Of a stretch of DNA of 54,587 nt, positions 13,161-52,213 are shown one piece after another; the first letter of the stretch is position 1, and every line of letters begins with the position of its first letter. The notes under the pieces are model-generated. The model was not told the DNA's origin and made no database searches. It saw only the letters and a program-made list of their open reading frames with translations. Both the position numbers and the translations under genes were made by a program. Location of the stretch: assembly GCA_019247775.1 (NCBI GenBank), contig JAFBAN010000073.1:1-54587 (forward strand). The letters are read 5' to 3'. This stretch comes from Chitinophagaceae bacterium. GTDB lineage: Bacteria; Bacteroidota; Bacteroidia; Chitinophagales; Chitinophagaceae.

Positions 13161-13260
13161 TTAGCTATTAGCCGTTAGCTGTTAGCTTAGTCGTTCTCTC
13201 CTGATGAGATTAATTTCAAGGGACAAGTAACTATAAGCTAAGAGCTAACAGCTAATGGCA
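13161..13260. repeat. Heptad-class inverted repeat (TTAGCNN word)
   Basis: Left arm: TTAGCTA, TTAGCCG, TTAGCTG, TTAGCTT in strict 7-nt register (13161-13188). Right arm from 13234: complementary NAGCTAA heptads that match 22 of 25 positions of the left arm. The loop is about 40 nt. It lies just past the stop of the Tat oxidoreductase gene (TAG at 13268-13266) and before the EamA start. Confidence 0.75.
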
Positions 13261-13265
13261 GGCTG

Positions 13266-14624
13266 CTAGTATTTAAACGGTTTCCCGTTCGCCATCACTT
13301 CCTGTGTTTTCTCGTCGAAAGTAACCTTGGCACCTGTGCGCGCCGCGGCATTGGCCATGATGGTTGCGGTTGAATGCGAATAACCCGCCTCCACCGGCGC
13401 ATTGGGCTGTTTGCGGCTGCGGACACATTCCATCCAGTTTTTTACGTGATTTGTCGTGAGCACATCGCCACCGGTATTGGCGCCCGTTTCTACCTTTTCT
13501 TCAATCTGGCTAAGGCTCATTTCAGGCAACAGGTTTGGTTGCATTTTCATTGCGGAAGCGGCATTCGCCCTCATACCGCCTTTCGGTGAGATCATGTTGG
13601 TAACAAGGTTCAACTCGCCGCCATTGGAATAGTACAGTTCACCTGGCTTGTCATCTCCGTTATGCATGCGCGACATAAACACCACCTGGAACCCGGTAGA
13701 AGGATCATTGGTGGGGCCATAATCAAATACCGCCGTAATGGTATCCCAGTTGCGACGACCATCTTTCCACCAGTAAATGCCGCCATTGGCAGTAACGCTT
13801 CTCGGATGTTGCAGACCCGAAAACCAATGCACGGTATCTATCTGGTGGCTCATCCATTGGCCAGGCAGGCCGGATGAATAAGGCCAGAACAACCGATACT
13901 CGAGGTATTTGCGCGGATCGAATGTGTCTGCGGGGCGGTTGAGCAGAAAGCGATTCCAGTCAAGGTCTTCCTGTTTACACTGGGCAACCAGGTCAGGTCT
14001 TCTCCAGCGCCCGGGCTGGTTCACATTCCAGGTAAGTTCTACCATGGTGATGGGACCAAACTTTCCCGACTGGATAAAGTTGGCAGCAGCCTTGTAGTTA
14101 ACACCGCTTCTCCGTTGCGAGCCGATCTGCACAATCTTACCGCTTTCCTTCACCGCTTTCAGGGCAGCACGGTTATCGGCCATGGTTTCAGCAAAAGGCT
14201 TTTCGCAGTACACATCACAGCCTGCTTTTACGGCTTCAATGGTGTGCAGTGCGTGAGCGAAATCAGGTGTGCTGATAAATACCGCATCCACGGTTTTGGA
14301 GTTGTAGAGTTCATCGTTATTGCGGTAGGCGTTAATATCATGTCCCATCTTATCCTTCAGGAAAGCCTGCCCTTCCTCCCTTCTTTTTTTCCAGAGATCG
14401 GATACCGACACGATATCGAAATTCATCTCCTTGTAAAACTTCATGAACGGCGGGATATGTGAGCTGCGGTGCCGGTCAGAAAAACCCACTACGCCTACCC
14501 GTACGCGATCGTTCGCGCCGATGATTCGTGCATAGCTTTGCGCACTGAAACCAGCCGAAGCGATATAGGTGCCGGCGGCGGCTTTGACAGATTTCTTCAG
14601 GAAATCTCTTCTTGTATTTGACAT
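13266..14624 (-). CDS. Tat-exported Gfo/Idh/MocA-family oxidoreductase
   Basis: 452 residues. Tat signal TRRDFLKKS with a hydrophobic stretch to about residue 30, Rossmann motif VRVGVVGFSDRH (about 40-51; the glycine pattern is less classical than in the paralogue at 8.9 kb), catalytic CEKPFAET, and the C-terminal GFO_IDH_MocA domain with HQIDTVHWFSG. Proteins of this type are secreted sugar-glycoside oxidoreductases in Bacteroidota. It is encoded directly after the double-DUF1080 gene (31-base gap) and shares its operon with uxaC and an SDR, so it is probably linked to uronate or 3-keto-glycoside metabolism. The substrate is not known. Confidence 0.85.
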   Translation of the reverse strand: MSNTRRDFLKKSVKAAAGTYIASAGFSAQSYARIIGANDRVRVGVVGFSDRHRSSHIPPFMKFYKEMNFDIVSVSDLWKKRREEGQAFLKDKMGHDINAYRNNDELYNSKTVDAVFISTPDFAHALHTIEAVKAGCDVYCEKPFAETMADNRAALKAVKESGKIVQIGSQRRSGVNYKAAANFIQSGKFGPITMVELTWNVNQPGRWRRPDLVAQCKQEDLDWNRFLLNRPADTFDPRKYLEYRLFWPYSSGLPGQWMSHQIDTVHWFSGLQHPRSVTANGGIYWWKDGRRNWDTITAVFDYGPTNDPSTGFQVVFMSRMHNGDDKPGELYYSNGGELNLVTNMISPKGGMRANAASAMKMQPNLLPEMSLSQIEEKVETGANTGGDVLTTNHVKNWMECVRSRKQPNAPVEAGYSHSTATIMANAAARTGAKVTFDEKTQEVMANGKPFKY

Positions 14625-14655
14625 AGCATGATCGTTTTTAAAATGATGAATATGT

Positions 14656-16023
14656 TTATTTCAGTTCGCGGATCTTGATGCTTCTGAATGCTACATGTTC
14701 CTGGTGATACTGCAGCAGGATAGGGCCCTTCGGTACCATCCCGAAGCCCGGGATCTTCGCGTATTTACTATGCGCCACCAATGCATAAAAATATTGCGTG
14801 CCCCGCTGGTATTCCAGCACTTTCCAGCCATTCAGCCAGTGCTCGATCCTTCCGTCGGGGAAGGCTACAATGCGGCCGCGGTTCCATTCGCCGATCGGGA
14901 GTTTCTCACGGCCGTTCTTGTAAGCGGGAATGAGGTCGTACAACGAAGCCAGTGTCCGGTCTCCCAGAACGCCTGCTTTGGCATCGGGATGTTTGTCATC
15001 ATCGAGCACCTGATACTCAAGTCCGACCGGGCCTGCCGGACTCTTTTCCATCACAAAATATTTTACACCCGAGTTGGCCGTATCTGTCATCTGGAATTCA
15101 AACTGCAGATCAAATGCGCTGAATGCTTCAGTGGTTACGATATCAGCACCACCCGCCTCGCGCATCACATGCAATTCGCCATTCATGATATGCCAGCCTT
15201 TGTCGGGAAAAACATCCTTGCCTGCAGCACGCCACCCATTGGTGGTTTTACCATCCCATAACAGTCTTACACCCATACGCTGCTCATCTTTTGAAATATT
15301 GTTGATCAGTGTATTTACTACAAACACATTATCATCCGGTGAAGGCTTGAGGCTTTTGGTCTGGATCCGTATATTTTTCCAGCGGATCTGTTCACCAACA
15401 TTTTTTTCATCCTTTATGGCATGTACCTGGAAGGCGATAAACCCTTTCGGGGTCATATCATCGATCAGATGCGCACAGGCGATCCCATTCACCCAGGTGC
15501 GGATGCTGTTGCCGATGCATTCAACGCGGTAGTGATTCCAATCGTTATGCTTGAACGCGACTTTCGCAGCAGGATTATTTTCCATCGAATACAACCAACC
15601 GCGACGCGCTTCATCGTAAATGCCGCCAGTCCAGGCGCGATCAGAAGGATCGATCTCGAGCTGGTACCCATGCACACGCTCCGGTGTTTTCTTGTCGGTC
15701 ACATTGCATTTATCATTGGCGTCTTTGATCTCGCTCCTGAACTGGATGCCGGAATTCATACTGTCGTTCACCTTGAAATCCACCTCCAGAATAAAATCAC
15801 CATACTCTTTTTCTGTAGCGAGGAATGAATTGGGTGTATTGAGCACCGTGGTGCCCACGATCTCGCCGTTCTGGACCGTATACCTGGCCTTGCCATTCAG
15901 TTGTTTGAAACCGGTCAGGTCTTTGCCGTTGAACAGGTATTCCCACTGGCCGGCAGCCGGTTTTTGTGCATGCACAATATGGCTGGCGGCAACGATCGGC
16001 AGCAGCAGTATCAGTTTTCTCAT
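14656..16023 (-). CDS. Tandem DUF1080 (3-keto-glycoside cleaving) protein
   Basis: 455 residues from the ATG at 16023, which gives a signal peptide (MRKLILLLPI...HAQ) and an 11-base gap to uxaC; longer starts overlap uxaC and are rejected. Two complete DUF1080 beta-sandwiches follow: about 25-220 (YLFNGKDLTGFKQL, FILEVDFKVNDSMNSGIQFRSE, GYQLEIDPSD) and about 250-453 (LLWDGKTTNGWRAA, DLQFEFQMTDTANSGVKYFV, EYQVLDDDKH). Both carry the NSGI/V-F strand and the E-Q/E-D motifs of the family. Two fused domains could handle two linkages or bind a longer chain. Acts in the periplasm downstream of a Gfo/Idh/MocA oxidation step (inference). Confidence 0.85.
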   Translation of the reverse strand: MRKLILLLPIVAASHIVHAQKPAAGQWEYLFNGKDLTGFKQLNGKARYTVQNGEIVGTTVLNTPNSFLATEKEYGDFILEVDFKVNDSMNSGIQFRSEIKDANDKCNVTDKKTPERVHGYQLEIDPSDRAWTGGIYDEARRGWLYSMENNPAAKVAFKHNDWNHYRVECIGNSIRTWVNGIACAHLIDDMTPKGFIAFQVHAIKDEKNVGEQIRWKNIRIQTKSLKPSPDDNVFVVNTLINNISKDEQRMGVRLLWDGKTTNGWRAAGKDVFPDKGWHIMNGELHVMREAGGADIVTTEAFSAFDLQFEFQMTDTANSGVKYFVMEKSPAGPVGLEYQVLDDDKHPDAKAGVLGDRTLASLYDLIPAYKNGREKLPIGEWNRGRIVAFPDGRIEHWLNGWKVLEYQRGTQYFYALVAHSKYAKIPGFGMVPKGPILLQYHQEHVAFRSIKIRELK

Positions 16024-16033
16024 GTGTATCATC

Positions 16034-17437
16034 CTATATATTGAAATATTCTTTCGCGTTATAATAGCAGACATTTTTTACAATGCCGCCCATCCAGTCA
16101 AGATCATTCGGCAGCAGTCCTTTTTCCATTTCTTCCCCGATCATATTGCAGAGGATACGCCTGAAGTATTCATGGCGCGGAAAGGAAAGAAAGCTGCGGC
16201 TGTCGGTGATCATACCGATGAACGTACTCAGCAATCCCATATTCGATAATGCATTCAGCTGCTTCTCCATTCCATCCTTCTGGTCGAGGAACCACCAGCC
16301 CGATCCGAACTGCATTTTTCCTTTTACACTTCCGTCGTTGAAATTACCCAGCATGCTGGCGAACACTTCGTTATCTGAAGGGTTGATATTATAGATCACG
16401 GTCTTCGCGAGCTGATCGGTCTGATCCAGGTGGTCCAGGAAACGCGCCAGCTGCTGCGCCTGCGGGAAATCGCCCACCGAATCGAATCCGCTGTCGGCGC
16501 CCAGTTTAGTGTTGAGCCGGCTATTGTTATTGCGGATCGGTCCGAGATGGAATTGCTGCACCCAGTTGCGTTCATTGTACATGCGGCAGAGCTCGATCAG
16601 CACATAGCCCGTAAAAGCTTCGGGGTCGGAGAAACTGCCTTTCTTATCGGCGATAAACCCTGCCAGTTCTATCTCCAGTTGTTTGGAAAACTGGAATTTG
16701 CCCGGCATCTGCGTTAATCCATGATCGGATACGCGACAACCATTTGCATGGAAAAAATTAACCCGGTTCTGCAGGGCTTCCAGCAGGGAGGTCAGGTCTT
16801 TTATCTCCATGCCGCTGGCATCCTGCAGCGATTGCAGGTGACGGAAAAAATCCGGCTTATCGATGAACAGAACTTTGTCTGGTCTGAAAGAAGGCGCTAC
16901 CCTGATACCGTTGTTTTCAGCTGCCAGTTTCTGGTGATGGGCAAGGCTGTCCCAGGGCTCATCCGTTGTGCCCACATATTCCACTTTGAAACGACGCAAC
17001 AGCGATTGCGTGGTATGAGTGCTTTGCTTAAGTTGCCTGTTGCAGGCCTGGTAAATATCGCTTGCAGTTTTCTCGCTGAGGTATTGTTCTATCCCGAACA
17101 CATTCTTCAGTTCGAGATGCGTCCAGTGAAAAAGCGGGTTGCGAACGGTATGCGGTACCATTTTGGCCCAGGCCATAAATTTTTTTTCATCATCCGCCGT
17201 ACCGGTGATCAATTCTTCGCAAACCCCCAGGGTGCGCAGGGCCCGCCATTTATAGTGATCGCCTTTGAGCCAGATCTCGGTAAGATTGGCGAACTGCTTA
17301 TTGGATGCGATTTCGTCGGGCGGAAGATGGCAATGGTAATCGATAACAGGAAGTTCTTTTGCATACTCATGGTAGAGCCGGGTAGCGGCTTTTCTCTGCA
17401 GCAGAAAGTTCTCGTTAAAAATATAATCTTGCATCAT
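16034..17437 (-). CDS. uxaC: Glucuronate isomerase (UxaC)
   Basis: 467 residues from the first of two adjacent ATGs at 17437, the length usual for UxaC; a longer reading to 17485 runs into the SDR gene. Cytoplasmic amidohydrolase-fold enzyme that converts D-glucuronate to D-fructuronate, or D-galacturonate to D-tagaturonate. Visible signatures: IDYHCHLPP with the paired metal-binding His, FHWTHLELKNVFGI, and GMITDSRSFLSFPRHEYFRRILCN near the C terminus. It shows that free uronic acid is an end product of the locus. It follows the SDR gene by 10 bases. Mannonate dehydratase (uxuA) and KDG-processing genes are not in the window. Confidence 0.95.
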   Translation of the reverse strand: MMQDYIFNENFLLQRKAATRLYHEYAKELPVIDYHCHLPPDEIASNKQFANLTEIWLKGDHYKWRALRTLGVCEELITGTADDEKKFMAWAKMVPHTVRNPLFHWTHLELKNVFGIEQYLSEKTASDIYQACNRQLKQSTHTTQSLLRRFKVEYVGTTDEPWDSLAHHQKLAAENNGIRVAPSFRPDKVLFIDKPDFFRHLQSLQDASGMEIKDLTSLLEALQNRVNFFHANGCRVSDHGLTQMPGKFQFSKQLEIELAGFIADKKGSFSDPEAFTGYVLIELCRMYNERNWVQQFHLGPIRNNNSRLNTKLGADSGFDSVGDFPQAQQLARFLDHLDQTDQLAKTVIYNINPSDNEVFASMLGNFNDGSVKGKMQFGSGWWFLDQKDGMEKQLNALSNMGLLSTFIGMITDSRSFLSFPRHEYFRRILCNMIGEEMEKGLLPNDLDWMGGIVKNVCYYNAKEYFNI

Positions 17438-17447
17438 GATGGTTAAA

Positions 17448-18266
17448 TCAAACCCCGCTGAATATGGTGAACCCGCCATCCACACCCAACTGCATGCCCG
17501 TCACGAATTTGCTCGCATCGCTCAGCAGGTAGATCACTGCACCGGCCAGCTCTTCGGGCTTACCGAATCTTTTATACGGCGTATGTTGTACAACAAGATC
17601 TCCGCGCGGCGTAAGGCTTCCATCCGGCTGGGTAAGTAAGGTCCGGTTCTGTTCTGTGAGAAAAAACCCCGGCATGATCGAATTCATCCGGATAGCATCG
17701 CCGAAGCGGTTGGCTACTTCAACGGCAAACCATTTTGTATAACAGTCAACAGCCGCTTTACCCATGCTGTATCCGAGTACCTTGGTAACAGCTTGCACCG
17801 AACTCACGGAAGAGATATTTACGATACTGCCGCCATTCTTTGTCATGGCCGTCCCGAATACCTGTGTAGGTATGATCGTGCCCCACAGGTTCAGCTCCAT
17901 CGCCTTGCGCATCCCGTACAGGTTCATCGAAAAGATATCGGCATCGGGTTGCAATACGCCTTCCGGCATATTTCCGCCGGCACAATTGACGAGGCCGTGA
18001 ATGGCGCCATATTTTTCGAGTACAAGCTCTCTTGCCTTGTTCAGGTCGGCCTCGTTCAGTACATCGGCGCTTACAGAAAATGCCTTGCCGCCGGATGCGC
18101 TGATCTCTTCTGCGCGCTTTTTACCCACTTCCGCATTACGCCCCAGTATTACCGCGGTGCCGCCTGCTTCGGCAATGGCTTTTACGAAACCGCCGCCCAG
18201 TATGCCCGTGCCGCCGGTAATAACGATCACTTTACCATCAAGAGAAAACAGATTCGTAGCGCCCAT
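17448..18266 (-). CDS. SDR oxidoreductase, probable fructuronate reductase / D-mannonate oxidoreductase
   Basis: 272 residues, classical SDR: TGGTGILGGG cofactor loop (about 18-27), NCAGG, Ser in VNISSVSS, catalytic YSMGK (Tyr/Lys), and a C-terminal FVTGMQLGVDGG. The length and position directly before uxaC match the SDR-type UxuB of Bacillus (YjmF), which reduces D-fructuronate to D-mannonate. 2-Keto-3-deoxygluconate dehydrogenase (KduD) is the main alternative. Cytoplasmic. The 96-base upstream gap contains a half operator-like word (18342-18356), so the uxaC unit may have its own promoter as well as read-through from the plug gene. Confidence 0.8.
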   Translation of the reverse strand: MGATNLFSLDGKVIVITGGTGILGGGFVKAIAEAGGTAVILGRNAEVGKKRAEEISASGGKAFSVSADVLNEADLNKARELVLEKYGAIHGLVNCAGGNMPEGVLQPDADIFSMNLYGMRKAMELNLWGTIIPTQVFGTAMTKNGGSIVNISSVSSVQAVTKVLGYSMGKAAVDCYTKWFAVEVANRFGDAIRMNSIMPGFFLTEQNRTLLTQPDGSLTPRGDLVVQHTPYKRFGKPEELAGAVIYLLSDASKFVTGMQLGVDGGFTIFSGV

Positions 18267-18341
18267 TGCAGTCAGTTATCAGTTTGCCGCGTGAATTTGA
18301 CTTTTTTTATCAAGTCATGCTCCGATTCACCGGTAATAATT

Positions 18342-29136: not shown

Positions 29137-29250
29137 CTCTTTGGAACTCTGTGTATTCCGTGCCTCTGTGGTGAAGCCTTAGAGGCTTTGAGGTAACAGA
29201 GGGCGCGAAGGTTTTACCACAGAGGCACAGAATGCACAGAGGTTCACAGA
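29137..29250. repeat. Octad-class inverted repeat after the LacI gene
   Basis: The left arm (CTCTGTG, TCCGTGCC, TCTGTGGT) ends at GGTGAA, and the right arm starts TTTTACCACAGAGGCACAG. The inner part contains GAGGTAACAGAGGGC. It is about 70% identical by eye to the element at 45134-45252, so the two are copies of one family. It runs up to 15 bases before the amidase start. Confidence 0.7.
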
Positions 29251-34130: not shown

Positions 34131-34282
34131 GAGTCTGGCGTTAGGAGTCTGGAGTCTGGAGTAAATATGGGCTGGTTATTCTTTTTTCCTTCGTTCTTCT
34201 TCTATCGAAACCTGCAGTCCAACCATACATAACGTTCCACCCTCCTACTCCAGACTCCTAACTCCAGACTCCTAACTCCTAC
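34131..34282. repeat. Heptad-class inverted repeat (AGTCTGG / TTAGGAG words)
   Basis: Left arm: AGTCTGG, CGTTAGG, AGTCTGG, AGTCTGG, AGTAAAT in 7-nt register. Right arm from 34244: complementary heptads ending at the kinase stop codon (TAG, 34285-34283). A GGAGGGTGGG / CCACCCTCC pair also flanks it. The loop is about 80 nt. Confidence 0.75.
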
Positions 34283-35599
34283 CTAGTAGTACTTCAGCGA
34301 AACCAAATCACCGGGCACAGGCCGCGCATTCCAGTGGGAATGGATGGCGAGCGCAGCGCCGATAGCCGTAGCCTGTGATACCGAAGCGGCAAAAACCTCA
34401 TAGCCCGCGAAGGCTTTTGCAAGCAGATGCATGTACACCGGATTATTTGCGAAGCCTCCGTCAACAAAGATCCGTGTAACACCGCTGCCGGACAAGATCA
34501 GCGAGGTACACTGGTACTGCAATTGAACCAGCCATTGCATCAGCGCATGGTAGGCCTGACTGTAATTGCTATGCATATCCAGATCAGCCTGATCGAATGC
34601 AGTTGTATTGGCATCCACATTATCTGCATCATAGCCGATATTTTTATAATGATCGACCGATACCTGGAAATGCGCGGCAAGTCGCTTCACCTGGTCGTCA
34701 TGCATTCGTCCGGCAAATAACCGCGAAGCTTTTACCGGCAGGCCGTCGTAAGAAAGATAGCAAAGACAATCCTGCTGCAGTTCTGCGCCGGTAAGTGGTT
34801 CATGATTGAATGGGTTGAGGCTGATACACCAGGTTCCTGTTGAGATCAGCACAAAGGGACCAGTAAAAGCGGCGAGATATGGGATAAGTGCGGCTGAACT
34901 ATCGTGCAGTCCGCCGCCGCACAGGATCATCTGTCTTTCAATGTCCGCCTGCACTGTGGCATTGCAAGCCATGAGGGGAGGGAATTTCATATCCACACCC
35001 TCGCGCTGCACCCAGGAATGGTAATCGTTCCTCGTAAAATCCCACAAACCGCTATGGCATCCAAGACTGGTGATATCCGCAGAAGCGCGTTTGCTGAAAA
35101 GATAGCTGATATATTGCGGCAGGTGAAGTGAATACCGGATCCGCCTGTAGAGATCGGGGCGCTCATATTTTATCCGGTATAACTGCAGACCTGAATTGAG
35201 ACTGCCCAATACAGGCGATGCAGTGGTGATGGCGAATCGCTTTTCATCCCCATAGGTTTCATAAAATCTTTCCTGTAGGGAACGTGGAAAAGGTTTCAGA
35301 TAATTATACAAAGGGCAAACCGGATAACCGGCAGCATCGATATGAACAAAACTGGCTCCGTAGGTAGTACAGTTAACAGCCCGGAAATGGAACCCCGGCA
35401 TCCGGAGGGCTGTACGGAAAGTTGCCTGCACCCAGGCCGTAAGCTTCTGAAGATCTTCGCAGGGCTCGCCTTCATCGTCCGCTATTTCTGCAAATTGTTC
35501 TGTCTGTTCGTATACAATTTTATATTGCTCATCGATCAGAAAGAATTTTTTATTGGTCTTGCCGATGTCGAACACTGCTATGACGGGCACCCGGCTCAT
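34283..35599 (-). CDS. FGGY-family carbohydrate kinase, probable rhamnulokinase
   Basis: 438 residues of the hexokinase/actin fold: N-terminal phosphate loop IAVFDIGKTNKKFFL, a middle FVLISTGTWCISLNPF, and the C-terminal RIFVDGGFANNPVYMHLL and SQATAIGAALA. It is the only kinase in the rhamnose operon, so it should phosphorylate L-rhamnulose to L-rhamnulose-1-phosphate, which the aldolase fusion cleaves. The sequence is not a close match to E. coli RhaB by eye; L-fuculokinase-type specificity is the alternative. Its start overlaps the rhaI stop by 4 bases, so the two are translationally coupled. Last gene of the operon. Confidence 0.85.
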   Translation of the reverse strand: MSRVPVIAVFDIGKTNKKFFLIDEQYKIVYEQTEQFAEIADDEGEPCEDLQKLTAWVQATFRTALRMPGFHFRAVNCTTYGASFVHIDAAGYPVCPLYNYLKPFPRSLQERFYETYGDEKRFAITTASPVLGSLNSGLQLYRIKYERPDLYRRIRYSLHLPQYISYLFSKRASADITSLGCHSGLWDFTRNDYHSWVQREGVDMKFPPLMACNATVQADIERQMILCGGGLHDSSAALIPYLAAFTGPFVLISTGTWCISLNPFNHEPLTGAELQQDCLCYLSYDGLPVKASRLFAGRMHDDQVKRLAAHFQVSVDHYKNIGYDADNVDANTTAFDQADLDMHSNYSQAYHALMQWLVQLQYQCTSLILSGSGVTRIFVDGGFANNPVYMHLLAKAFAGYEVFAASVSQATAIGAALAIHSHWNARPVPGDLVSLKYY

Positions 35600-40747: not shown

Positions 40748-40824
40748 AAAGGCAAAAATAAAAAGGCAAAAGGCAAAAAAGAAACATTCCATTTTGCCTT
40801 TTGCCTTTTGATTTTTTGATCTTT
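40748..40824. repeat. Heptad-class inverted repeat (AAAGGCA word)
   Basis: Eleven consecutive heptads in one register: AAAGGCA, AAAATAA, AAAGGCA, AAAGGCA, AAAAAGA, AACATTC, CATTTTG, CCTTTTG, CCTTTTG, ATTTTTT, GATCTTT. The two halves pair (AAAAGGCAAAAGGCAAAA type) to make a long A/T-rich hairpin. It ends 3 bases from the stop of the minus-strand 73-residue gene and could terminate its transcript. Confidence 0.8.
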
Positions 40825-45446: not shown

Positions 45447-45450
45447 CCTT

Positions 45451-45535
45451 GAGAACAGATGAACAGGGAACGGATGAACCAGTCACAAATCTTTCTTCTG
45501 ATCACCCGTTCCTTGTTCCTTACTCATCTGTTCTC
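45451..45535. repeat. Convergent-gene inverted repeat of GAAC words; supplies the hutU stop
   Basis: GAGAACAGATGA (45451-45462) is an exact complement of 45524-45535, and AACAGGGAACGG faces CCGTTCCTTGTT. GAAC recurs every 7-8 bases. The right arm encodes the last three residues (ENR) and the TGA of hutU; the left arm begins 4 bases after the stop of the 51-residue gene. It is well placed as a bidirectional terminator. The word GAACAGGGAAC also occurs in the array before the cupin gene. Confidence 0.7.
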
Positions 45536-47206
45536 CAGCCTGTCTTCAATTCCCAGACCATTCTTTCGCATAGTGTCTTTGGCAATATCGTAACCGGCAT
45601 CTGCATGGCGGATCACGCCGAGACCCGGGTCGTTCCGTAATACGCGCGCCAGTCTTTTTGCTGCATCTTCCGTACCGTCGGCTACGATCACCATTCCGGC
45701 ATGGATACTGTATCCCATTCCCACACCACCACCATGATGCAGGCTTACCCAGCTTGCGCCGCCGGCCGTACTTAGTAAGGCATTCAGCACCGGCCAGTCG
45801 GCCACAGCATCGGAACCATCCAGCATCGCTTCCGTTTCGCGGTTGGGCGAAGCCACGGAACCTGTATCCAGGTGATCGCGGCCGATCACTATCGGGGCCT
45901 TTACCTTTCCTGTTCTGACCAGCTCGTTGAATGCCAGACCTGCTTTTTCCCTTTCACCCTGACCCAGCCAGCAGATCCGGGCCGGCAATCCCTGGAATGC
46001 GATCCGCTCTTTGGCCATCCGCATCCAGCGCTGCATACTTTTGTTACCGGGAAATAATTGCATGATCAATTCATCAGTCACCGCGATATCTGCAGGGTCG
46101 CCGCTCAGTGCGGCCCAGCGGAAAGGCCCCTTGCCTTCACAGAATAACGGCCTGATATAGGCCGGCACGAACCCGGGAAAATCGAAAGCATTTTTCAATC
46201 CCCGTTCCTGCGCGCGGGCGCGAAGATTGTTGCCATAGTCGAATGTAATAGCGCCGCGATCCTGCAACTGCAGCATCAGTTCCACATGCAGTTTCATGCT
46301 GTCGTAGGCAAGTGCGATATAGCGCTCGGGGTCCTGTGTGCGCAACACATTTGCTTCTGCGTTGGAAAGCGTATGCGGAACATAACCGATCAGGGGATCA
46401 TGCGCAGAAGTCTGATCGGTCAGAATATCCACCTGGATCTTTCTTTCTAGCAGGCGCCGCAGCAGGTCAACCGCGTTGCAGAGCACGCCGATGCTGAGCC
46501 GCTCCCCGGTCTGCCTTGCTTGAACAGAGCGGTCTATTGCTTCATCGATATCGATGAATTTCTGATCGAGGTATTTTGTCTCGAGGCGTTTGTCGATACG
46601 CCATTCCTCTACTTCAGCTACCAGGCACACGCCGTCGTTCATGGTAACGGCCAAAGGCTGCGCGCCTCCCATACCGCCTAATCCTGCGGTAACGCTCAGC
46701 GTACTTTTTAATGAGCCGCCGAAATGTTTATCTGCCACTGCGGCAAATGTTTCATAGGTACCCTGCACAATCCCCTGCGAGCCGATATAGATCCAGCTTC
46801 CGGCCGTCATCTGGCCATACATCATCAGCCCTTTTTTTTCCAGCTCGGTAAAATGCTCCCAGTTCGCCCATTTGGGTACCAGCTGTGAATTGGAAAGAAG
46901 TACCCGGGGCGCATCCTTATGCGTTTTCAGCATAGCCACCGGTTTGCCGCTCTGGATCAATAATGTCTCATCATTTTCCAGTGCTTTCAGCGCCTTGATG
47001 ATCAGGTCCAGGCTCTCAAAATTGCGGGCCGCTTTCCCCCGCCCGCCATAAACGATCAGGTCGTCGGGCCGCTCAGCCACTTCAGGATCCAGATTATTCA
47101 GCAGCATCCGCAACGCCGCTTCCTGGATCCAGCCCTTGCAGTTAAGGGTTGTGCCGGTTGGGGTTTTGTATTTCTTCGTATCGTATCGGGACGTAGTGAC
47201 TTCCAT
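45524..47206 (-). CDS. hutU: Urocanate hydratase
   Basis: 560 residues from the ATG at 47206; a longer frame to 47242 has no support. Typical HutU: N-terminal [60 protein letters not shown], the NAD-binding [26 protein letters not shown], and [17 protein letters not shown] near the end. It hydrates urocanate to imidazolonepropionate in histidine degradation. hutH, hutI and hutG are not adjacent, so the pathway genes are dispersed or incomplete. TATTTTG at 47246-47240 may be its -7 box. The final residues come from a repeat arm. Confidence 0.96.
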
Positions 47207-47265
47207 AAACTGAAAATTGAGATCGGAAAATTTATTGCACAAAATAAAGGTCCGTTCGCTTCCAA

Positions 47266-47377
47266 CCTATGTGGCCTTCATTATCTATGTTTCTATGTGT
47301 TAAACATTCGGGGCGCTGTGGCGGTCACGCGCAGTTCTACCACATAGGAACATAGGTACATAGATTCACATAGGTTC
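47266..47377. repeat. Octad-class inverted repeat (CATAGGNA word)
   Basis: Left: CTATGTG and TCTATGTT, TCTATGTG. Right: CACATAGG, AACATAGG, TACATAGA, TTCACATAGG, mostly in 8-nt register, ending at the stop codon of the TPR gene (47380-47378). The words match those at 29976-30060. Confidence 0.65.
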
Positions 47378-47689
47378 TTAATAAACAAGGTCCTCGTAGG
47401 CTCCTTGCAATTCATTATGCGAGTGATTATCGCCCGCTTTCTTCGCAGCCTCCATTCCTTTCTCATACCACTCAATAGCGAGTTCCCGCAATTCCATTTT
47501 CTCCAGCAGTTTTGCCAGGTGGTAGTAAGAACCCACATAATCGGGCGATTCGGCCAGTATCGTTTCAAATAGCTCCCGGGCTTTAGCGTCCTCCCCCAGT
47601 TTCAGATACTCCAGCGCCAGCGCATGACGAAGAAAATTATCCTTCGGGCTGGCCTGCAAAAACTCATTGATCCTGGCAATCCGGTCCAT
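47378..47689 (-). CDS. Small TPR-repeat protein, 103 residues
   Basis: Starts at the ATG at 47689 (MDRIARINEFLQ); the longer frame to 47818 translates a heptad repeat. Two to three TPR units are visible: DNFLRHALALEYLKLGEDAKARELFETILAESP, then DYVGSYYHLAKLLEKMELRELAIEWYEKGMEAAKKAGD. TPRs mediate protein-protein contacts. No signal peptide. Divergent from etfB and downstream of no obvious partner, so its client is unknown. Confidence 0.85.
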   Translation of the reverse strand: MDRIARINEFLQASPKDNFLRHALALEYLKLGEDAKARELFETILAESPDYVGSYYHLAKLLEKMELRELAIEWYEKGMEAAKKAGDNHSHNELQGAYEDLVY

Positions 47690-47698
47690 ACGCAAAAA

Positions 47699-47806
47699 TA
47701 GTCTATAGTCTCTAGTCTGTGGTCTGTAGTTAAGCAGAATAGCCACAAACCAATCACATGCCACAAATAACAACCACAGACCACAGACTACAAACCACAG
47801 ACTAAA
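47699..47806. repeat. Heptad-class inverted repeat (TAGTCTN word)
   Basis: Left: TAGTCTA, TAGTCTC, TAGTCTG, TGGTCTG, TAGTTAA in strict register from 47699. Right: CACAGAC, CACAGAC, TACAAAC, CACAGAC, TAAAGC. The arms pair. Unlike other members, it lies between two divergent genes (TPR and etfB), 10 bases from the TPR start. Confidence 0.75.
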
Positions 47807-47826
47807 GCGTTTTCCCAAATCCTTCC

Positions 47827-47834
47827 TATATTTG
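47827..47834 (+). promoter_or_regulatory. Candidate -7 element of etfB
   Basis: TATATTTG is a perfect TAnnTTTG match, 38 bases before the etfB ATG. The -33 position falls in the end of the heptad repeat, with no TTG. Confidence 0.45.
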
Positions 47835-47872
47835 CTGATGGTTGTTTATGCAACCAATTTAAATATCCCTTT

Positions 47873-48616
47873 ATGAAGATCTTAGTTTGTATAAGCAAGA
47901 CGCCGGATACCACTTCCAAAATTGCGTTTGTCAATGGCAACACCAAATTCGACGAAGCAGGTGTGCAGTGGATCATCAATCCCTATGATGAATGGTATGC
48001 GCTGGTGCGCGCCATTGAACTCAAGGAGAAGGACGCTTCCATTGTACTGCACCTGGTTACCGTGGGCGGCGCCGACTGTGATCCCATCATCCGCAAAGCG
48101 CTGGCGCTGGGTGGTGATGAAGCCATCCGGGTCAACGCCGATAATGCCGACAGTTTTTATATCGCTTCGCAGATCGCTGAAATAGCAAAGCAGGGAGGCT
48201 ATGATCTGGTCCTTACAGGAAAGGAAACGATCGACTACAATGGTTCGGCCATTGGCGCCATGGTAGCGGAATTGCTGGATGCGCCTTATATTTCCCTCGC
48301 TACCAAATTCGACCTGGCCGGAAATACCGCCACTGTGGCCCGCGAAATTGAAGGCGGTGAAGAGATCGCAGAAGTACAGTTACCATTAGTAGTGAGTTGC
48401 CAGAAAGGCGTCGCCGAACAGCGCATCCCGAACATGCGCGGCATCATGGCAGCACGCACCAAACCGCTGAAAGTAGCAGAGCCTGCAGCTGTTGATGCAC
48501 TCACCAGCATCGTCAGCTATGAATTGCCGCCACCGAAAGCAGGCGTAAAGCTGGTAAGTCCTGATAACGTAGCCGAGCTCGTTCGCCTTCTCCACGAAGA
48601 GGCCAAAGCGATCTGA
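47873..48616 (+). CDS. etfB: Electron transfer flavoprotein, beta subunit
   Basis: 247 residues, normal length. MKILVCISKTPDTTSKI at the start, PYDEWYALVRAIELKE, GGADCDPIIRKALALGGDEAIRV, LTGKETIDYNGSAIGAMVAELL and LPLVVSCQKGVAEQRIPNMRGIMAARTKPLKV are the hallmark stretches, including the AMP-binding region. It pairs with EtfA to carry electrons from acyl-CoA and other dehydrogenases to the membrane ETF dehydrogenase. Co-transcribed with etfA (38-base gap made of heptads). Confidence 0.97.
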   Translation: MKILVCISKTPDTTSKIAFVNGNTKFDEAGVQWIINPYDEWYALVRAIELKEKDASIVLHLVTVGGADCDPIIRKALALGGDEAIRVNADNADSFYIASQIAEIAKQGGYDLVLTGKETIDYNGSAIGAMVAELLDAPYISLATKFDLAGNTATVAREIEGGEEIAEVQLPLVVSCQKGVAEQRIPNMRGIMAARTKPLKVAEPAAVDALTSIVSYELPPPKAGVKLVSPDNVAELVRLLHEEAKAI

Positions 48617-48621
48617 CCAAT

Positions 48622-48649
48622 TTCAAAATCTAACATTCAAAATTCAAAA
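48622..48649. repeat. Short heptad array inside the etfB-etfA operon
   Basis: TTCAAAA, TCTAACA, TTCAAAA, TTCAAAA: four heptads in strict register, starting 5 bases after the etfB stop and ending 5 bases before the etfA ATG. No facing arm, so no hairpin here. Confidence 0.65.
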
Positions 48650-48654
48650 TAATT

Positions 48655-49617
48655 ATGGTTCTTGTATTTATAGATCAGACCGAAGGGCATATCAAGAAAT
48701 CTTCTTTTGAAGTGCTCACCTACGGCGCCAAACTGGCCGCACAGCTGGGCACTACCGCAGAAGGCTTATTGCTTGGCACCGTTAACGACGAGCTGCCCGC
48801 GCTCGGAAAATATGGGATCAAAAAAGTACATCAGGTAAGCAGTGACACCCTGAACCACCTCGACGCGCAGGTATTTGCGAAAGTGATCGCTGAGGCAGTT
48901 ACCAGTACGGGCGCCGATACGGTCGTGTTTTCGCATAACCAGACCGGCAAGGCGGTAGCCCCTAGAGTAGCTGCCAGACTGAAAGCAGGTATCGTTACGG
49001 GCGCCTCTGCTCTGCCCGATACTGCCAACGGTTTCGTGGTGCGCAAGACAGTATTTTCCGGTAAGGCTTTCGCCAATGTGAAGATCGATAGTCCAATCAA
49101 GATCATCTCGCTCAATCCCAACAGCTATCATACCGCCGCCGGCGAAGGAACTGCAGAAGTTGTGGCCCTGAACATCGCCGTAGACGCGCCGAAAGTGAAG
49201 ATCACGGCCGTAAATAAAGTAAGCGGAGAAGTGCCGTTGACCGAAGCGGATATTGTAGTGAGCGGCGGCCGCGGTTTGAAAGGCCCCGAGAACTGGAATA
49301 TCCTGCTCGATCTCGCAAAGGAACTGCATGCCGCTACTGCCTGCAGCCGCCCTGTTGCCGATGCACACTGGCGCCCGCATCATGAGCATGTGGGACAAAC
49401 CGGCATCCAGATCGCCCCAAATCTTTATATCGCCATCGGTATTTCAGGCGCCATTCAGCACCTGGCCGGCGTAAACCGCAGCAAGACCATCGTGGTCATC
49501 AACAAAGACCCCGAATCCCCGTTCTTCAAAGCGGCGGACTACGGAATTGTAGGTGATGCATTTGAAGTAGTGCCGAAGCTGACGGAAGAGATCAGGAAAA
49601 TGCGAGCAGGCGGGTAG
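48655..49617 (+). CDS. etfA: Electron transfer flavoprotein, alpha subunit
   Basis: 320 residues. The N-terminal ETF domain (LVFIDQTEGHIKKSSFEVLTYGAKLA) is followed by the C-terminal FAD-binding domain: VSGGRGLKGPENW, CSRPVADAHWRPHHEHVGQTG, APNLYIAIGISGAIQHLAGVN and INKDPESPFFKAADYGIVGDAFEVVP. It holds FAD and forms the heterodimer with EtfB. Normal length. Its stop lies 9 bases before a long heptad array. Confidence 0.97.
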   Translation: MVLVFIDQTEGHIKKSSFEVLTYGAKLAAQLGTTAEGLLLGTVNDELPALGKYGIKKVHQVSSDTLNHLDAQVFAKVIAEAVTSTGADTVVFSHNQTGKAVAPRVAARLKAGIVTGASALPDTANGFVVRKTVFSGKAFANVKIDSPIKIISLNPNSYHTAAGEGTAEVVALNIAVDAPKVKITAVNKVSGEVPLTEADIVVSGGRGLKGPENWNILLDLAKELHAATACSRPVADAHWRPHHEHVGQTGIQIAPNLYIAIGISGAIQHLAGVNRSKTIVVINKDPESPFFKAADYGIVGDAFEVVPKLTEEIRKMRAGG

Positions 49618-49626
49618 AAGGAGAAG

Positions 49627-49759
49627 GTTTGGGGTTTGGCGTTTCGCGTTTGGCGTTTGGCGTTTCGCGCTGGCCTTCACGATTCACATCTCACGTCTCA
49701 CGCCTCACGCCTCACGATCATCATTCAACATTCCTTGTTCCCTGTTCAATATTCACAAC
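49627..49759. repeat. Nineteen uninterrupted heptads between etfA and the cupin gene
   Basis: From 49627 the sequence can be cut into 19 consecutive 7-mers without any shift. Seven are of GTTTGGC type (GTTTGGG, GTTTGGC, GTTTCGC and so on), six of CTCACGC type (TTCACGA, TTCACAT, CTCACGT, CTCACGC twice, CTCACGA), and six are degenerate TCNNNNT words (TCATCAT, TCAACAT, TCCTTGT, TCCCTGT, TCAATAT, TCACAAC). The last heptad contains the cupin stop codon (49755-49753). The CTCACGC block is the complement of the array at 52165-52213. Confidence 0.85.
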
Positions 49760-50079
49760 GCCCTGTAATCTTCGCGCACCGGGTTAAATACATCCAGCAC
49801 TTTACAATCCGTTATTGCCAGCCCTGAATGTGGAACATTGGAGGGGATGACCACTACGGTGCCCGGACCGAAACGGATCGGCTTGCCTGCAAGTGTTAAT
49901 TCAAACTCGCCTTCGAGCACCTGCATCACCTGTTCATGCACATGTGAATGTTCTTTCAGCGGCGCTCCTGCTTTAATATCCACGAATGAGCAGGTGATAT
50001 TGTCAGTGTGTATGAAACGCGCCGCATAACCCGGAGCGATCTCTTTCGGTTCGATGCTGGAAAGTTCGATGGTAGGCAT
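49753..50079 (-). CDS. Single-domain cupin protein
   Basis: 108 residues with one cupin_2 barrel: motif 1 around PLKEHSHVHEQVMQVLEGEFEL (His-x-His with a later Glu, metal ligands) and motif 2 around GTVVVIPSNVPHSGLAI (second His). No signal peptide. Proteins of this size bind metals and small molecules and range from isomerases to sensors; no function can be assigned. Its stop codon lies in the final heptad of the neighbouring array, and an octad repeat lies between its start and the YceI gene. Confidence 0.85.
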   Translation of the reverse strand: MPTIELSSIEPKEIAPGYAARFIHTDNITCSFVDIKAGAPLKEHSHVHEQVMQVLEGEFELTLAGKPIRFGPGTVVVIPSNVPHSGLAITDCKVLDVFNPVREDYRAL

Positions 50080-50110
50080 GGTGATTGTTTAGCGGAAGAT
50101 AGAATTATTT

Positions 50111-50184
50111 TTTTACCGCAAAGGCGCTATGCCGCCATGGAGCGCTAAGATGCCCTCGCGTTCCATTGCGTCCTTGCGGTAAAA
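50111..50184. repeat. Octad-class inverted repeat between the cupin and YceI genes
   Basis: TTTTTTACCGCAAAGG, CGCTATGC, CGCCATGG, AGCGCTAAG on the left; GCGTTCC, ATTGCGTC, CTTGCGGTAAAA on the right. The TTTACCGCA / TGCGGTAAA ends are outward here. It sits next to the YceI terminator. Confidence 0.65.
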
Positions 50185-50202
50185 GATTGCAGTCGCGATC
50201 AT

Positions 50203-50230
50203 AAAAAAGCCCCCGTAAGAAACGGGGGCT
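50203..50230 (-). terminator. Rho-independent terminator of the YceI gene
   Basis: On the minus strand, AGCCCCCGT, a 4-nt loop and ACGGGGGCT form a 9-bp GC stem followed by TTTTTT. It starts 19 bases after the YceI stop. Confidence 0.88.
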
Positions 50231-50248
50231 CCAAAACTCAACTAAAAA

Positions 50249-50821
50249 TTATTTCGCAAAAAGATGGATCGCCAATTGCACATCTTTCGCCACATTGCCC
50301 ACACCATAAGTAATACCAATCAAAGTGCGGTCGAGGTTAACGAATGACTGCGCGAACAGGCCCTGCGCACCCGCACCGCGTACCTGCGCCGCGATCTTCA
50401 CCGGAAAGCTTACGCCTTTCAAAGTAAGATTACCGGAAATGTCGGCGGTTGCATCGCTGGTATAATTAACAGAACTGATCTCGTACACCGCTTCATTGAA
50501 TTTCTCAACATCGAAGAAATCCGCTCTTTTCAGGTGCCCGGTAAGACCGTCACCGCCGCCCGGGTCGGTTACTTTCAGGTTGGCCAGGTCGATCACGAAC
50601 TTTCCGCCGGTGATCTTCCCATCCTCAACATTCACCGTACCGCTTTTGATGGGGAAATAACCGGTATGGAAATCCGTTTTCTTCGCAGCCACCCAGTCGA
50701 TCCGGCTTTTTTCAGCATTGACAGTAAGGGTAGTTGCCGGCTTCTTTGTTTTAATGGGCATGAAGGATGACATACCAAGGATCAGGGCTGCACCTGAAAG
50801 CATGAGGAGCGCTTTTTTCAT
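50249..50821 (-). CDS. YceI-family periplasmic protein
   Basis: 190 residues: signal peptide (MKKALLMLSG...GMSSFMP) and the YceI lipocalin-like barrel (LTVNAEKSRIDWVAAKK, GYFPIKSGTVNVEDGKITGGKFVIDLANLKV, HLKRADFFDVEKFNEAVYEIS, DISGNLTLKGVSFPVKI). Family members bind isoprenoid or other lipophilic ligands; the natural ligand is not known. A single gene with its own promoter and terminator. Confidence 0.93.
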   Translation of the reverse strand: MKKALLMLSGAALILGMSSFMPIKTKKPATTLTVNAEKSRIDWVAAKKTDFHTGYFPIKSGTVNVEDGKITGGKFVIDLANLKVTDPGGGDGLTGHLKRADFFDVEKFNEAVYEISSVNYTSDATADISGNLTLKGVSFPVKIAAQVRGAGAQGLFAQSFVNLDRTLIGITYGVGNVAKDVQLAIHLFAK

Positions 50822-50867
50822 ATTTGATTTTTTGTTTATAAAATGTGTAGTCTGGTAAATTGGTGGA

Positions 50868-50896
50868 CAAATATAGGATAATTAAAGTTCAAACAA
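50868..50896 (-). promoter_or_regulatory. Promoter of the YceI gene
   Basis: On the minus strand, TTG (50896-50894), an 18-base spacer and TATATTTG (50875-50868) match the Bacteroidota consensus at every fixed position. The ATG follows about 47 bases later. Confidence 0.65.
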
Positions 50897-50956
50897 TAAA
50901 ATCGGGAAAGCATGTGAATAACAGTTCACTTATCTTCGCGGAAAATTATCCCACTC

Positions 50957-52168
50957 ATGAATTTGCATGAATACCAGGCTAAGGAACTGCTTAAAAAATA
51001 CAATGTACTGGTGCAGGAAGGCATTGCGGTAGATACGGTGATGGCGGCTGAAGAAGCGTACCGTCAGCTGAAGACCCAGACCGGGAACAATTTTGCAGTG
51101 ATCAAGGCCCAGATCCATGCGGGCGGACGGGGTAAAGGCAAGATCGCAGGCACCGAACAGCGCGGAGTTGCGGTGGGCAAGAGCCTCGAGGATGTGACCA
51201 CCATCGCTAAAAATATCCTGGGCGGCACCCTGGTAACCATCCAGACCGGCGCCGCAGGCAAAAAAGTGAACAAAATATTGCTGGCGCAGGATGTCTACTA
51301 TCCCGGCCCCAATCCCGTAAAAGAATTCTACCTCTCTATCCTGCTTGATCGCTCCAAAGGCATGAACGTGGTAATGTACAGCACCGAGGGCGGCATGGAT
51401 ATCGAAGAGGTAGCCCATAATACTCCCGATAAGATCTACAAGGAATGGGTGCATCCCGGCGGCGGGTTACAGGGTTTCCAGGCACGGAAGATCGCTTTCA
51501 ACCTGGGCCTCAGCGGTGAAGCGTTCAAGAACTGCGTGAAGTTCGTGACCAATCTCTACAATGCCTATGTGGGGCTCGACTGCAGCATGCTCGAGATCAA
51601 CCCGCTGTTCAAGACCAGCGATGAGAAGATCATTGCTGTGGATTGCAAAATGAACATTGACGATAATTCGCTGATGCGTCATCCCGATATCGCCACCCTG
51701 CGCGATGTTACCGAAGAGGATCCCACCGAAGTGGAAGCGGGACAATACAACCTCAATTTTGTAAAACTCGACGGTAATGTAGGCTGCATGGTGAACGGGG
51801 CCGGTCTGGCAATGGCTACCATGGACATGATCAAACTCAGCGGCGGCGAGCCCGCCAACTTCCTGGATGTAGGCGGTTCTGCCAATGCCCAGACCGTGGA
51901 AGCGGGTTTCCGGATCATCCTGAAAGACCCGAATGTAAAAGCCATCCTGATCAATATCTTCGGCGGCATCGTGCGCTGCGACCGTGTTGCGGCAGGTGTG
52001 ATCGAAGCATTCAATAAACTCGGGAATATCAATATCCCCATCATCGTTCGCTTACAGGGTACCAATGCGGAGGAAGCGAAAAAACTCATCGACGAAAGCG
52101 GGCTGAAAGTGCAGTCGGCCATACTGCTTAGCGAGGCGGCGGACCTGGTGAAGAAAGCGGTGGCGTGA
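50957..52168 (+). CDS. sucC: Succinate-CoA ligase (ADP-forming), beta subunit
   Basis: 403 residues. An ATP-grasp N domain (MNLHEYQAKELLKKYNVLVQEGI; VIKAQIHAGGRGKGKIA; LDCSMLEINPLFKT; KMNIDDNSLMRHPD) and a CoA-ligase C domain (GNVGCMVNGAGLAMATMDMIKLSGGEPANFLDVGG; ILINIFGGIVRCDRVA; VRLQGTNAEEAKKLI). Makes succinate and ATP from succinyl-CoA in the TCA cycle with SucD, whose gene is not adjacent. The TGA stop lies inside the first heptad of the repeat that follows. TATCTTCG (50931-50938) is a near-match -7 box. Confidence 0.97.
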   Translation: MNLHEYQAKELLKKYNVLVQEGIAVDTVMAAEEAYRQLKTQTGNNFAVIKAQIHAGGRGKGKIAGTEQRGVAVGKSLEDVTTIAKNILGGTLVTIQTGAAGKKVNKILLAQDVYYPGPNPVKEFYLSILLDRSKGMNVVMYSTEGGMDIEEVAHNTPDKIYKEWVHPGGGLQGFQARKIAFNLGLSGEAFKNCVKFVTNLYNAYVGLDCSMLEINPLFKTSDEKIIAVDCKMNIDDNSLMRHPDIATLRDVTEEDPTEVEAGQYNLNFVKLDGNVGCMVNGAGLAMATMDMIKLSGGEPANFLDVGGSANAQTVEAGFRIILKDPNVKAILINIFGGIVRCDRVAAGVIEAFNKLGNINIPIIVRLQGTNAEEAKKLIDESGLKVQSAILLSEAADLVKKAVA

Positions 52169-52213
52169 GGCGTGAGGCGTGAGGCGTGAGACGTGAATGG
52201 TGAATGGTGAATC
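52165..52213. repeat. Seven-copy heptad array beginning in the sucC stop codon
   Basis: GTGAGGC three times, GTGAGAC, GTGAATG twice, GTGAATC, in strict register. The stop codon of sucC is the TGA of the first copy. It is the complement of the CTCACGC block at 49676-49717, with the same order of variants. It is followed by a true terminator. Confidence 0.85.

Follow-up and report, generated by a model that had tools for sequence, protein, structure and literature searches.

The window analysed here, a 54,587-nt stretch of a Chitinophagaceae bacterium (contig JAFBAN010000073.1 of assembly GCA_019247775.1), carries tandem arrays of 7-nt words in the gaps between its genes. We read these heptad arrays as the terminal inverted repeats of small mobile elements, the copies in the window being gene-less or broken and each element lineage having its own word, and we put the probability of this reading at about two in three. 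In the gene-bearing form a left arm of about 4–6 heptads, a gene of family PF05635 (IVP) and a complementary right arm would follow one another, and the hairpins with unrelated loops and the single arms of the window would be gene-less or broken copies of this presumably mobile IVP element, with a layout like that of REPINs (repetitive extragenic palindromic (REP) doublets forming hairpins). We observed the element of arms plus gene, words which occur genome-wide, presence, absence and replacement of elements between close species, and concerted change of the two arms.

The window is one contig (C174) of the source genome assembly G000 (4.04 Mb in 248 contigs). An intergenic set of 29 stretches (4.6 kb) was defined with gene boundaries set by hand from the list of open reading frames (ORFs), and seven lag-7 arrays were found in it where 0.02 were expected from Markov-model shuffles; the coding DNA of the window contained none. 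Among the other lags from 3 to 24 in the same 29 stretches, lag 14 gave four arrays, lags 8 and 21 one each and the rest none. Within the window tandem heptads were restricted to the gaps between genes, as in the heptamer simple sequence repeats (SSR) and short tandemly repeated repetitive sequences (STRR) of bacteria, the cyanobacterial STRR being heptamer repeats. An earlier note on this DNA had listed eight loci of period 7, and Tandem Repeats Finder called this period at seven of them (13160/13236, 34131/34242, 40748/40792, 47698/47773, 48622, 49627/49690 and 52162/52193), although 48622 is weak with 72% matches and the array at 45453 was assigned period 8.

In Bacteroidota, genes for four-helix-bundle proteins often lie among short repeats, a lead which was then tested. 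G000 contains six PF05635 genes over the family cut-off and all six were flanked by inverted arms (scores 13–32, with a cross-element 99th percentile of 12.5; the arms were also seen by eye). Five of the six elements were heptad elements, each with its own word, and the words of the window were found in three of the six: L036 carries that of 34131, L035 that of 47699 and L034 that of 49690 and 52162, with 14–20 7-mers in common. Among 109 foreign IVP elements, 20 shared at least three 7-mers with some window array, the best sharing 11. The family matches PDB entries 2gsc and 2rld, with five chains in each entry, and the NCBIfam label of one tested IVP was 'four helix bundle protein'.

PF05635 genes were present in 90 of 118 sampled genomes of the phylum, and a scan of one genome per species returned at least 573 confirmed relatives, the best 80 of which came from many bacterial phyla and from two Methanophagales contigs; at L184, the one Methanophagales locus that could be scored, lag-7 scores were 16 and 9. 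In the window's own genus a match was found in 2 of 18 other sampled genomes, both above the cut-off but weak. The IVP loci used for flank analysis had been taken by score (the top 30 of each search, and the top 80 of at least 573 confirmed) and were not a random sample. A total of 115 were scored, with L176 (one of the 80) excluded from arm and per-element counts for its short flank, and the loci retrieved in the window's genus stayed outside the flank counts. A strict lag-7 array was found in 126 of 229 IVP flanks, compared with 2 in shuffles and 6 of 221 stretches lying 700–900 nt away. Counted per element, lag-7 or lag-8 arrays stood on both sides in 53 of 114 and on one side in 41 of 114, and other gaps in the same loci had lag-7 arrays in 18 of 108. 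Inverted arms exceeded the cross-element 99th percentile at 24 of 35 IVP loci of the phylum (direct-orientation control 3) and at 30 of 79 from all taxa (direct control 9), against a pair control which is harsh as different elements often share words. Lag-7 arrays numbered 8 per Mb in 20 genomes without IVP hits and 41 per Mb in 20 IVP-rich genomes (p 0.022, Mann-Whitney on the 37 of 40 regions of at least 4 kb, four of the 40 being short contigs of 1.2–4.0 kb), while counts at lags 6, 9 and 12 were alike in the two groups.

The IVP gene ran in the same direction as both neighbours at 5/5 loci of G000, 25/29 of the phylum and 53/74 of all taxa, and genes of family PF13366 did so at 28/33; these counts use 5 of 6, 29 of 29, 74 of 80 and 33 of 35 loci, respectively, and stand without a random-gene expectation. 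The shared direction fits read-through expression, and an RNA-level step as for the intervening sequences (IVS) of rRNA is possible. The ratio of nonsynonymous to synonymous substitution (dN/dS) of IVP genes was 0.03–0.08 in seven of eight pairs, with dS often saturated and the eighth pair not estimable, which indicates that the genes are kept and the proteins conserved.

When the 126 IVP arms (95 distinct words) were aligned in phase they shared the register NTNAGNN, with frequencies of 0.88 for G, 0.67 for A and 0.58 for T and the remaining positions nearly free. The register score was 231 and its maximum with columns scrambled 165; arms had a median length of 4.9 heptads (interquartile range 4.3–6.1). 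Word similarity followed protein similarity with a Mantel r of 0.228 (94 elements; maximum of 999 permutations 0.072), and for pairs below 0.7 similarity r was 0.15 with a maximum of 0.068. Both the 126 of 229 flanks in the periodic model and the 94 of 115 elements in the Mantel test had been preselected by lag-7 score, and these values describe array-bearing elements. Since similar IVP proteins carry similar words, the word is a property of the element. The covariation apparently holds across phyla too, as L147, labelled Limnohabitans on a metagenome contig for which misbinning is possible, shares words with the Flavobacteriales elements L139 and L148. It may reflect either the protein reading the word or mere joint inheritance.

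The words of the window are not independent of one another, because CTCACGC at 49690, read on the other strand, gives the 52162 word, and because words recur at many loci; independence of all words was rejected on these grounds. AGTCTG is moreover common to 34131 and 47699, so that the earlier description of words differing between loci holds in part only. Recurrence was determined with 14-mers in 605 kb of other G000 sequence, part of which had been selected for the GCGTGAG word (20 sampled regions were chosen for GCGTGAG, IVP or PF13366 loci and another 20 by contig number alone). The 14-mers of the 34131, 34242, 49675 and 52162 arms recurred at 19–24 loci, the 34131 word at 23–24 other loci, those of the 47699 and 47772 arms at 5–6 loci and those of the left arms 13160 and 45448 at four other loci each, all with reversed controls of 0. 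Counting both strands, the genome contained 39 exact 14-mer matches to GCGTGAGGCGTGAG, which fell into 22 clusters (two being arms of a single hairpin), again with a reversed control of 0. No clear excess was seen for 40787 (0), 13234 (0), 49626 (9, control 7) or 45502 (6, control 9).

For the AGTCTGG family the right arm was located by pattern in 15 of the 18 loci listed; by eye, AGTCTGG stands at the start and CCAGACT at the end of most copies, the arms of several are 31 nt long and the loops are seemingly unrelated. Two gene-less hairpins, L340 and L346, have arms identical over 31 nt to those of IVP element L036. Eighteen GCGTGAG loci, one of them gene-bearing and one in which no right arm was found, had unrelated interiors except for a nested hairpin in three, and a common internal region of gene-less copies was accordingly rejected. 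In these three (L039, L058, L062) an inner GGTCCATAG/GGTCCATGG hairpin lies in the loop of an outer GCGTGAG hairpin, so that two words are nested; the inner word is also carried by IVP element L032. By eye, L055 and L066 have terminator-like stems in the loops of their GCGTGAG hairpins, where the arm may separate a gene from its terminator. G000 contigs chosen by number contained 188 lag-7 arrays per Mb (40 in 213 kb), a density which, extended to the whole genome, would amount to several hundred arrays as against six IVP genes. Neighbouring arms were oriented +− in 32 cases, ++ in 16, −+ in 6 and −− in 4 by the periodic model, which assigns strand poorly for some real arms, and paired arms were +− in 25 of 39.

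The earlier note had excluded a copied transposable sequence and proposed instead local expansion of a 7-mer with template switching to the other strand. In this account a chance 7-mer would grow by polymerase slippage, and no mobile element would be required. Loops unrelated between copies agree with such an origin, as does a proposal, made in the part of PMC4679880 on which we draw, that links the 7-nt length to the stretch with which the polymerase is in contact. Local growth does not predict the same words at about 20 unlinked loci with reversed controls of 0, the identical 31-nt arms, words that covary with the protein, or arrays tied to one protein family, lag-7 arrays being absent beside PF13366 genes (0/70). 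The exclusion of a copied sequence is not supported in view of the same observations, of arrays flanking that one family in many phyla and of the presence, absence and replacement of whole elements, which was seen when close relatives were compared.

This comparison used one syntenic 20-kb segment in five species of another genus, four of them ~90% identical and the fifth (G104) 77%, in which four IVP gaps and two gene-less gaps were compared. The first gap held one IVP in four species and a different IVP (59% identity) in G139. The second held an IVP element in four species and a mere few nucleotides, with neither hairpin nor gene, in G104, and in G077 the IVP gene was a different one (53–54% identity) with other words. 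At such replaced gaps the flanks were 92–94% identical while words and gene differed together. In the third gap an ORF search found an IVP in three species; G077 had a shortened copy with no open frame passing, and none was found in G139. In the fourth, three species had an IVP, and the other two had a different, short heptad array or not much at all. A 70-bp gene-less hairpin was present in G093, G077 and the outgroup G104, and missing in G139, where one TACT was left; it was probably lost in G139 because the outgroup has it. In G065 a differently worded hairpin sits at its place. At another gap three species had three words (GAATTTT, GAATTAA and GAGTTTT types), each self-complementary and one with a further palindromic repeat in its loop, G077 and G104 being unreadable there, which bears out the earlier expectation that the period is kept while the word changes. 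At L214, near aligned coordinate 390, the loop of a heptad hairpin contains, in G139 but not in G093 or G065, a 106-nt palindromic repeat starting TGTTTTGTCATTTCGAA.

Change within arms was also observed. In one IVP element with a 98% identical protein, the paired stretch varied between species at two positions, which were the same in the left and the right arm (GAGATTAAG, GTGATTTAG), with a displacement of 8 nt in the left arm; copying of one arm from the other would lead one to expect such joint change. The number of units varied as well, one right arm having ~4 units in G093 and 8–9 in G104. Variation in unit number, arms that change alike and words replaced in a fixed gap with the period kept all speak for local expansion, whereas arrays present or absent as blocks do not, and the spread of words through the genome is left unexplained by it. 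We therefore consider local expansion unlikely as the whole account: the arms are shaped by slippage and by copying from one to the other, but their spread is not explained in this way.

Some integrons and group IIC introns insert at stems, and the hairpins could likewise be older than the genes, with IVP and GxxExxY genes being passengers that insert into loops. The nested hairpins of L039, L058 and L062 show loops as landing sites, and the occupation of one gap by different IVP genes would agree with passengers. It is difficult to reconcile with this that arm period follows gene family (IVP: 7 and occasionally 8 or 9; GxxExxY: 8–10), that words covary with the protein and change together with the gene upon replacement, and that G104 has neither hairpin nor gene at the second gap; passenger genes are in our judgement improbable.

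Gaps of the window itself were compared with relatives as the earlier note had suggested. Of 29 relatives, 28 had no lag-7 array behind etfA within the 170 nt or less that were compared, 59 nt being readable in one. By eye, five of the 29 have the same next gene as the window, four of these without an array and one (L007, genome G013) with a differently worded array. After sucC, 0 of 6 genus relatives had a lag-7 array. The gene at 34283 had a match in one of six relatives (49% identity) and its gap was not comparable. Hairpins which are located between genes, five of them in the window with strong RNA folds, could be host features, that is, terminators or mRNA-stability stems incidentally built of short repeats. 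Such features would hardly be missing at two comparable gaps in 28/29 and 6/6 relatives, respectively, or differ in lag-7 density more than 20-fold between G000 and genomes without IVP. An Rfam scan of the window gave no match at gathering score, and neither did 80 named IVP loci, so that a known RNA family was rejected. We regard host features as a very improbable origin of the arrays.

Under the mobile-element reading, the word would travel with the protein and gene-less hairpins carrying the same word would spread through the genome. The IVP protein would bind the arrays and would most probably act in trans, either itself or through host machinery recruited by it to the arms. New elements landing in old hairpins, together with loss of old ones, such as the outer hairpin after nesting, would change the words while the period stays, for which the nesting and replacement described above provide the pattern. 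The differences in unit number within an element would stem from slippage, and copying from arm to arm, by quasipalindrome correction or template switching, would keep the arms complementary.

Several observations weigh against this reading. No clear target duplication was found. According to the earlier note, whole blocks of identical words on the move with target duplications would mean ordinary transposition and refute local expansion, and of this only the blocks were seen; a single occupied/empty pair has TACT on both sides, a possible 4-bp duplication which may instead be microhomology with the word. To our knowledge the IVP protein has no nuclease or transposase activity, and gene-less copies with the same arms and unrelated loops are unlike ordinary deletion derivatives. 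Strong matches to the IVP elements of G000 were obtained for only four of the eight loci of the earlier note (34131, 47699, 52165 and a single arm of 49627), and in the 605 kb the 14-mers of 40748 showed no excess over control (1 locus and 1) and those of 48622 recurred 0 times. L007 has its heptad array although no IVP gene was found in G013. No array at threshold was detected for 20 of 114 IVP genes, and lag 8 occurred in 24 of 229 IVP flanks, so that 7 is a rule and not a law; the arms of L033 have period 9 (lag-9 scores 9 and 20, lag-7 scores 5 and 4), from which unit length can change within the IVP class. Finally, 12 of the 20 regions from IVP-rich genomes had no array, and several of the 15 arrays from those genomes are A+T-rich and may be due to chance.

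The want of a catalytic activity could be met by an unlinked conventional transposase, for example a Y1/RAYT enzyme or that of another insertion sequence, moving both forms with IVP as cargo or regulator. No catalytic motif is known for IVP, and G000 has two Y1_Tnp genes. By eye, however, both are flanked by their own, different palindromes (Y1_Tnp being the only transposase family searched), by which ownership of the heptad hairpins by RAYT was rejected, and with a single enzyme there would be no reason for period and word to go with the small gene. An unlinked transposase thus seems to us an unlikely mover. The flanks of the Y1_Tnp genes (L211, L212) contain GGCCGCGGCAACAGAA-type tandem units and GCCCGCCTCCAGGCGGG palindromes, ordinary RAYT/REP-like neighbours that constitute a third pairing of gene and palindrome.

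Among known systems, the 23S rRNA IVS with an S23p/IVP gene occur in Leptospira, Coxiella and others and are described, in the portion of PMC4990558 used here, as selfish and horizontally transferred. They resemble the present elements in having a PF05635/TIGR02436 protein (PDB 2gsc, 2rld), a length of a few hundred bp and complementary, stem-forming ends (PMC4990558). The present elements differ in lying between protein genes, in their many gene-less copies in one genome and perhaps in their heptad ends, and no rRNA match at gathering score was obtained with Rfam in the window or the 80 named IVP loci. REPIN-RAYT systems, according to the sections of PMC3116915 to which we refer, likewise have many short extragenic hairpins in which two conserved, inverted arms enclose a spacer of lower conservation, with compensatory changes in the stem and a low-copy gene beside matching repeats. 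Two inverted conserved arms with a variable spacer in many extragenic copies are likewise present in G000, but here a four-helix-bundle gene takes the place of the Y1 transposase and lies between the arms, the arms are tandem heptads and a genome has many word families. Miniature inverted-repeat transposable elements (MITE), as internal-deletion derivatives, are unlike the present copies, the interior of which was not shared among the 18 GCGTGAG loci.

Heptamer repeats have been published without reference to such genes. GGGAATC in Xanthomonas and GGGGAYT in Nostoc are intergenic and often form close convergent pairs, with 70 cases in X. campestris, and the passages of PMC4692102 drawn upon name no owner gene. 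Two cyanobacterial IVP loci, L169 from Anabaena and L151 from Microcoleaceae, have GGGAATA/GGGAACA arms, which suggests that they belong to the same class as the published repeats. TAACTGA direct repeats of Beggiatoaceae, Cyanobacteria and Bacteroidetes were proposed to act in translational control, with horizontal transfer suggested and no mechanism evident in the part of PMC4679880 consulted. They resemble the present arrays in their period of 7 and sporadic occurrence, and in our reading their reverse complement fits NTNAGNN; they are unlike them in being nearly all direct and of one word (PMC4679880, as far as the same part goes). As excerpted here, both papers describe repeats which may be the same thing minus its owner. 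The Avd protein of diversity-generating retroelements is said in the available part of PMC10053308 to resemble PF05635; in the one protein tested, an IVP of G000, model NF033474 gave a weak hit of 38.8 bits, under its cut-off of 80. Among the best-ranked papers of the open-licence PMC literature, which leaves subscription papers and preprints outside, no paper linking heptamer repeats to PF05635 was found.

The GxxExxY (PF13366, PDDEXK_3) genes of the same genomes were examined in parallel as an internal control. Inverted arms passed at 17 of 35 such loci (direct control 9), with words like CACAGAG, CGCAGA and ACATAGG, and strict arrays in their flanks were found at lag 8 in 2/70, at lag 9 in 8/70 and at lag 10 in 5/70, whereas lag 7 gave 0/70. 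Four of six GxxExxY genes in G000 had arms on both sides. The window contains octad arrays, and at each of seven loci checked 3–16 10-mers were common with one GxxExxY element (four genes involved; reversed controls 0–1). Arrays at lag 7 beside IVP but at lags 8–10 beside PF13366, with octads matching GxxExxY elements, argue that period largely follows gene family, and by these sequence matches the octads appear to be a sister class to the heptads.

Beyond the window we offer a wider proposal, which is tentative and which we would not yet favour: that a class of mobile hairpins in bacteria and archaea is moved or licensed by the small, non-enzymatic IVP protein reading heptads, with one binding unit per 7 nt (a pentamer would go well with arms of some five units), that a parallel GxxExxY (PDDEXK-like) class uses words of 8–10 nt, that most heptamer repeats (STRR, GGGAATC, TAACTGA) are remains of such elements and that the word is an evolving protein-DNA recognition code. 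The link to PF05635 gives the heptamer repeats of cyanobacteria, Xanthomonas and sulfur bacteria a likely owner and would explain differing words with a constant period; if this is true, the rRNA IVS would be one particular instance of a more general element. It also becomes possible to test by what means REPIN-like hairpins move when no transposase is involved, whether a word is read by the four-helix bundle and how inverted arms evolve jointly.

The heptad loci of the window were delimited with Tandem Repeats Finder, lag-7 and inverted-arm searches. The earlier note had listed a single array at each of five loci, where the array was confirmed but a second, complementary one had been missed. 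The first of these has a left arm at 13160..13189 (+; word TTAGCTA, which is ATTAGCT in the NTNAGNN register) and a right arm at 13234..13259 (−), complementary to 13164-13189 at 88% across 26 nt, with a fold z of −7.4. At the second, a left arm at 34131..34163 (+; AGTCTGG/AGTTAGG), sharing 15 7-mers with the arms of L036, and a right arm at 34242..34281 (−) pair over 34131-34155/34247-34271 (z −3.3, scored from a piece ending at 34262). The third consists of 40748..40783 (+; AAAGGCA) and 40787..40817 (−; TTTTGCC), which pair over 40754-40783/40787-40816 with 90% complementarity and a 3-nt loop (z −5.8). The fourth has words GAACAGAT/GAACAGG at a spacing of 7–8 nt in its left arm (45448..45480, +) and a right arm at 45502..45538 (−), pairing over 45448-45471/45515-45538 (z −6.6), and the fifth has TAGTCTG at 47699..47731 (+), with 20 7-mers common with L035, and a right arm at 47772..47804 (−) with 85% complementarity across 33 nt (z −6.5). 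All five hairpins are gene-less and, by eye, the purine-rich strand, with AG or GG, enters the paired loci from both sides.

Folding into inverted repeats, which had been claimed for most loci, was thus seen at these five but not at the remaining three, where it was no better than in shuffles (49625-49720, z −0.5; 52160-52215, z +0.1; 48617-48655, z +0.2); the inverted-pair search was likewise empty in 48600-48670 and 49600-49780. The TTCAAAA array at 48622..48650 (−), in the etfB-etfA spacer, is doubtful, and by eye several relatives have ATTCAAA in this spacer without an array. The 49627 locus consists of two different arms joined, GTTTGGC at 49626..49669 (+) and, unpaired with it, GCGTGAG on the opposite strand at 49675..49717 (−; CTCACGC on the + strand), which shares 16 7-mers with L034. 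A second right-arm-like array with a different word, of GAACAGG type on the − strand, follows at 49724..49755 (−), within the lag-7 segment 49675-49755. At 52162..52212 (+) lies an unpaired composite arm, GTGAGGC-GTGAGAC-GTGAATG, with 14 7-mers common with L034. The stop codon of sucC is apparently supplied by this array (window 52158-52170, GCGTGA), and TCGTGA stands likewise ahead of IVP element L034.

The octad loci of the window comprise a pair ACGCAAAG/GCGCCTTG at 1..82, sharing three 10-mers with the flanks of L070; CCTCTGCG at 5795..5840 (11 10-mers with L072, reversed control 0); CTCCGCGC at 11225..11345 (12 with L072, control 1); CACAGAGG at 29210..29245 (12 with L067, control 0); and ACATAGGA at 47335..47380 (12 with L068, control 0). 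Two further loci are hairpins, one starting ACCGCAAAG at 50108..50187 with inverted arms (z −4.9; five 10-mers with L072) and one starting CTCTGCG at 52262..52382 (z −11.4), a gene-less relative of L072 with 16 common 10-mers (control 1).

A motif like GTATAAATACG or GGCAAATACG was noticed 48–76 nt upstream of the matched gene in L033, L034, L067, L068 and L211, with variants in L036, L069 and L072, so that it spans the unrelated, small gene families IVP, GxxExxY and Y1_Tnp. AAATACG or TAATACG stood upstream of 5 of 13 such genes compared with 13 of 623 ORF starts, and a stricter form of 3 of 13 compared with 8 of 623; the motif may be a shared promoter or processing site.

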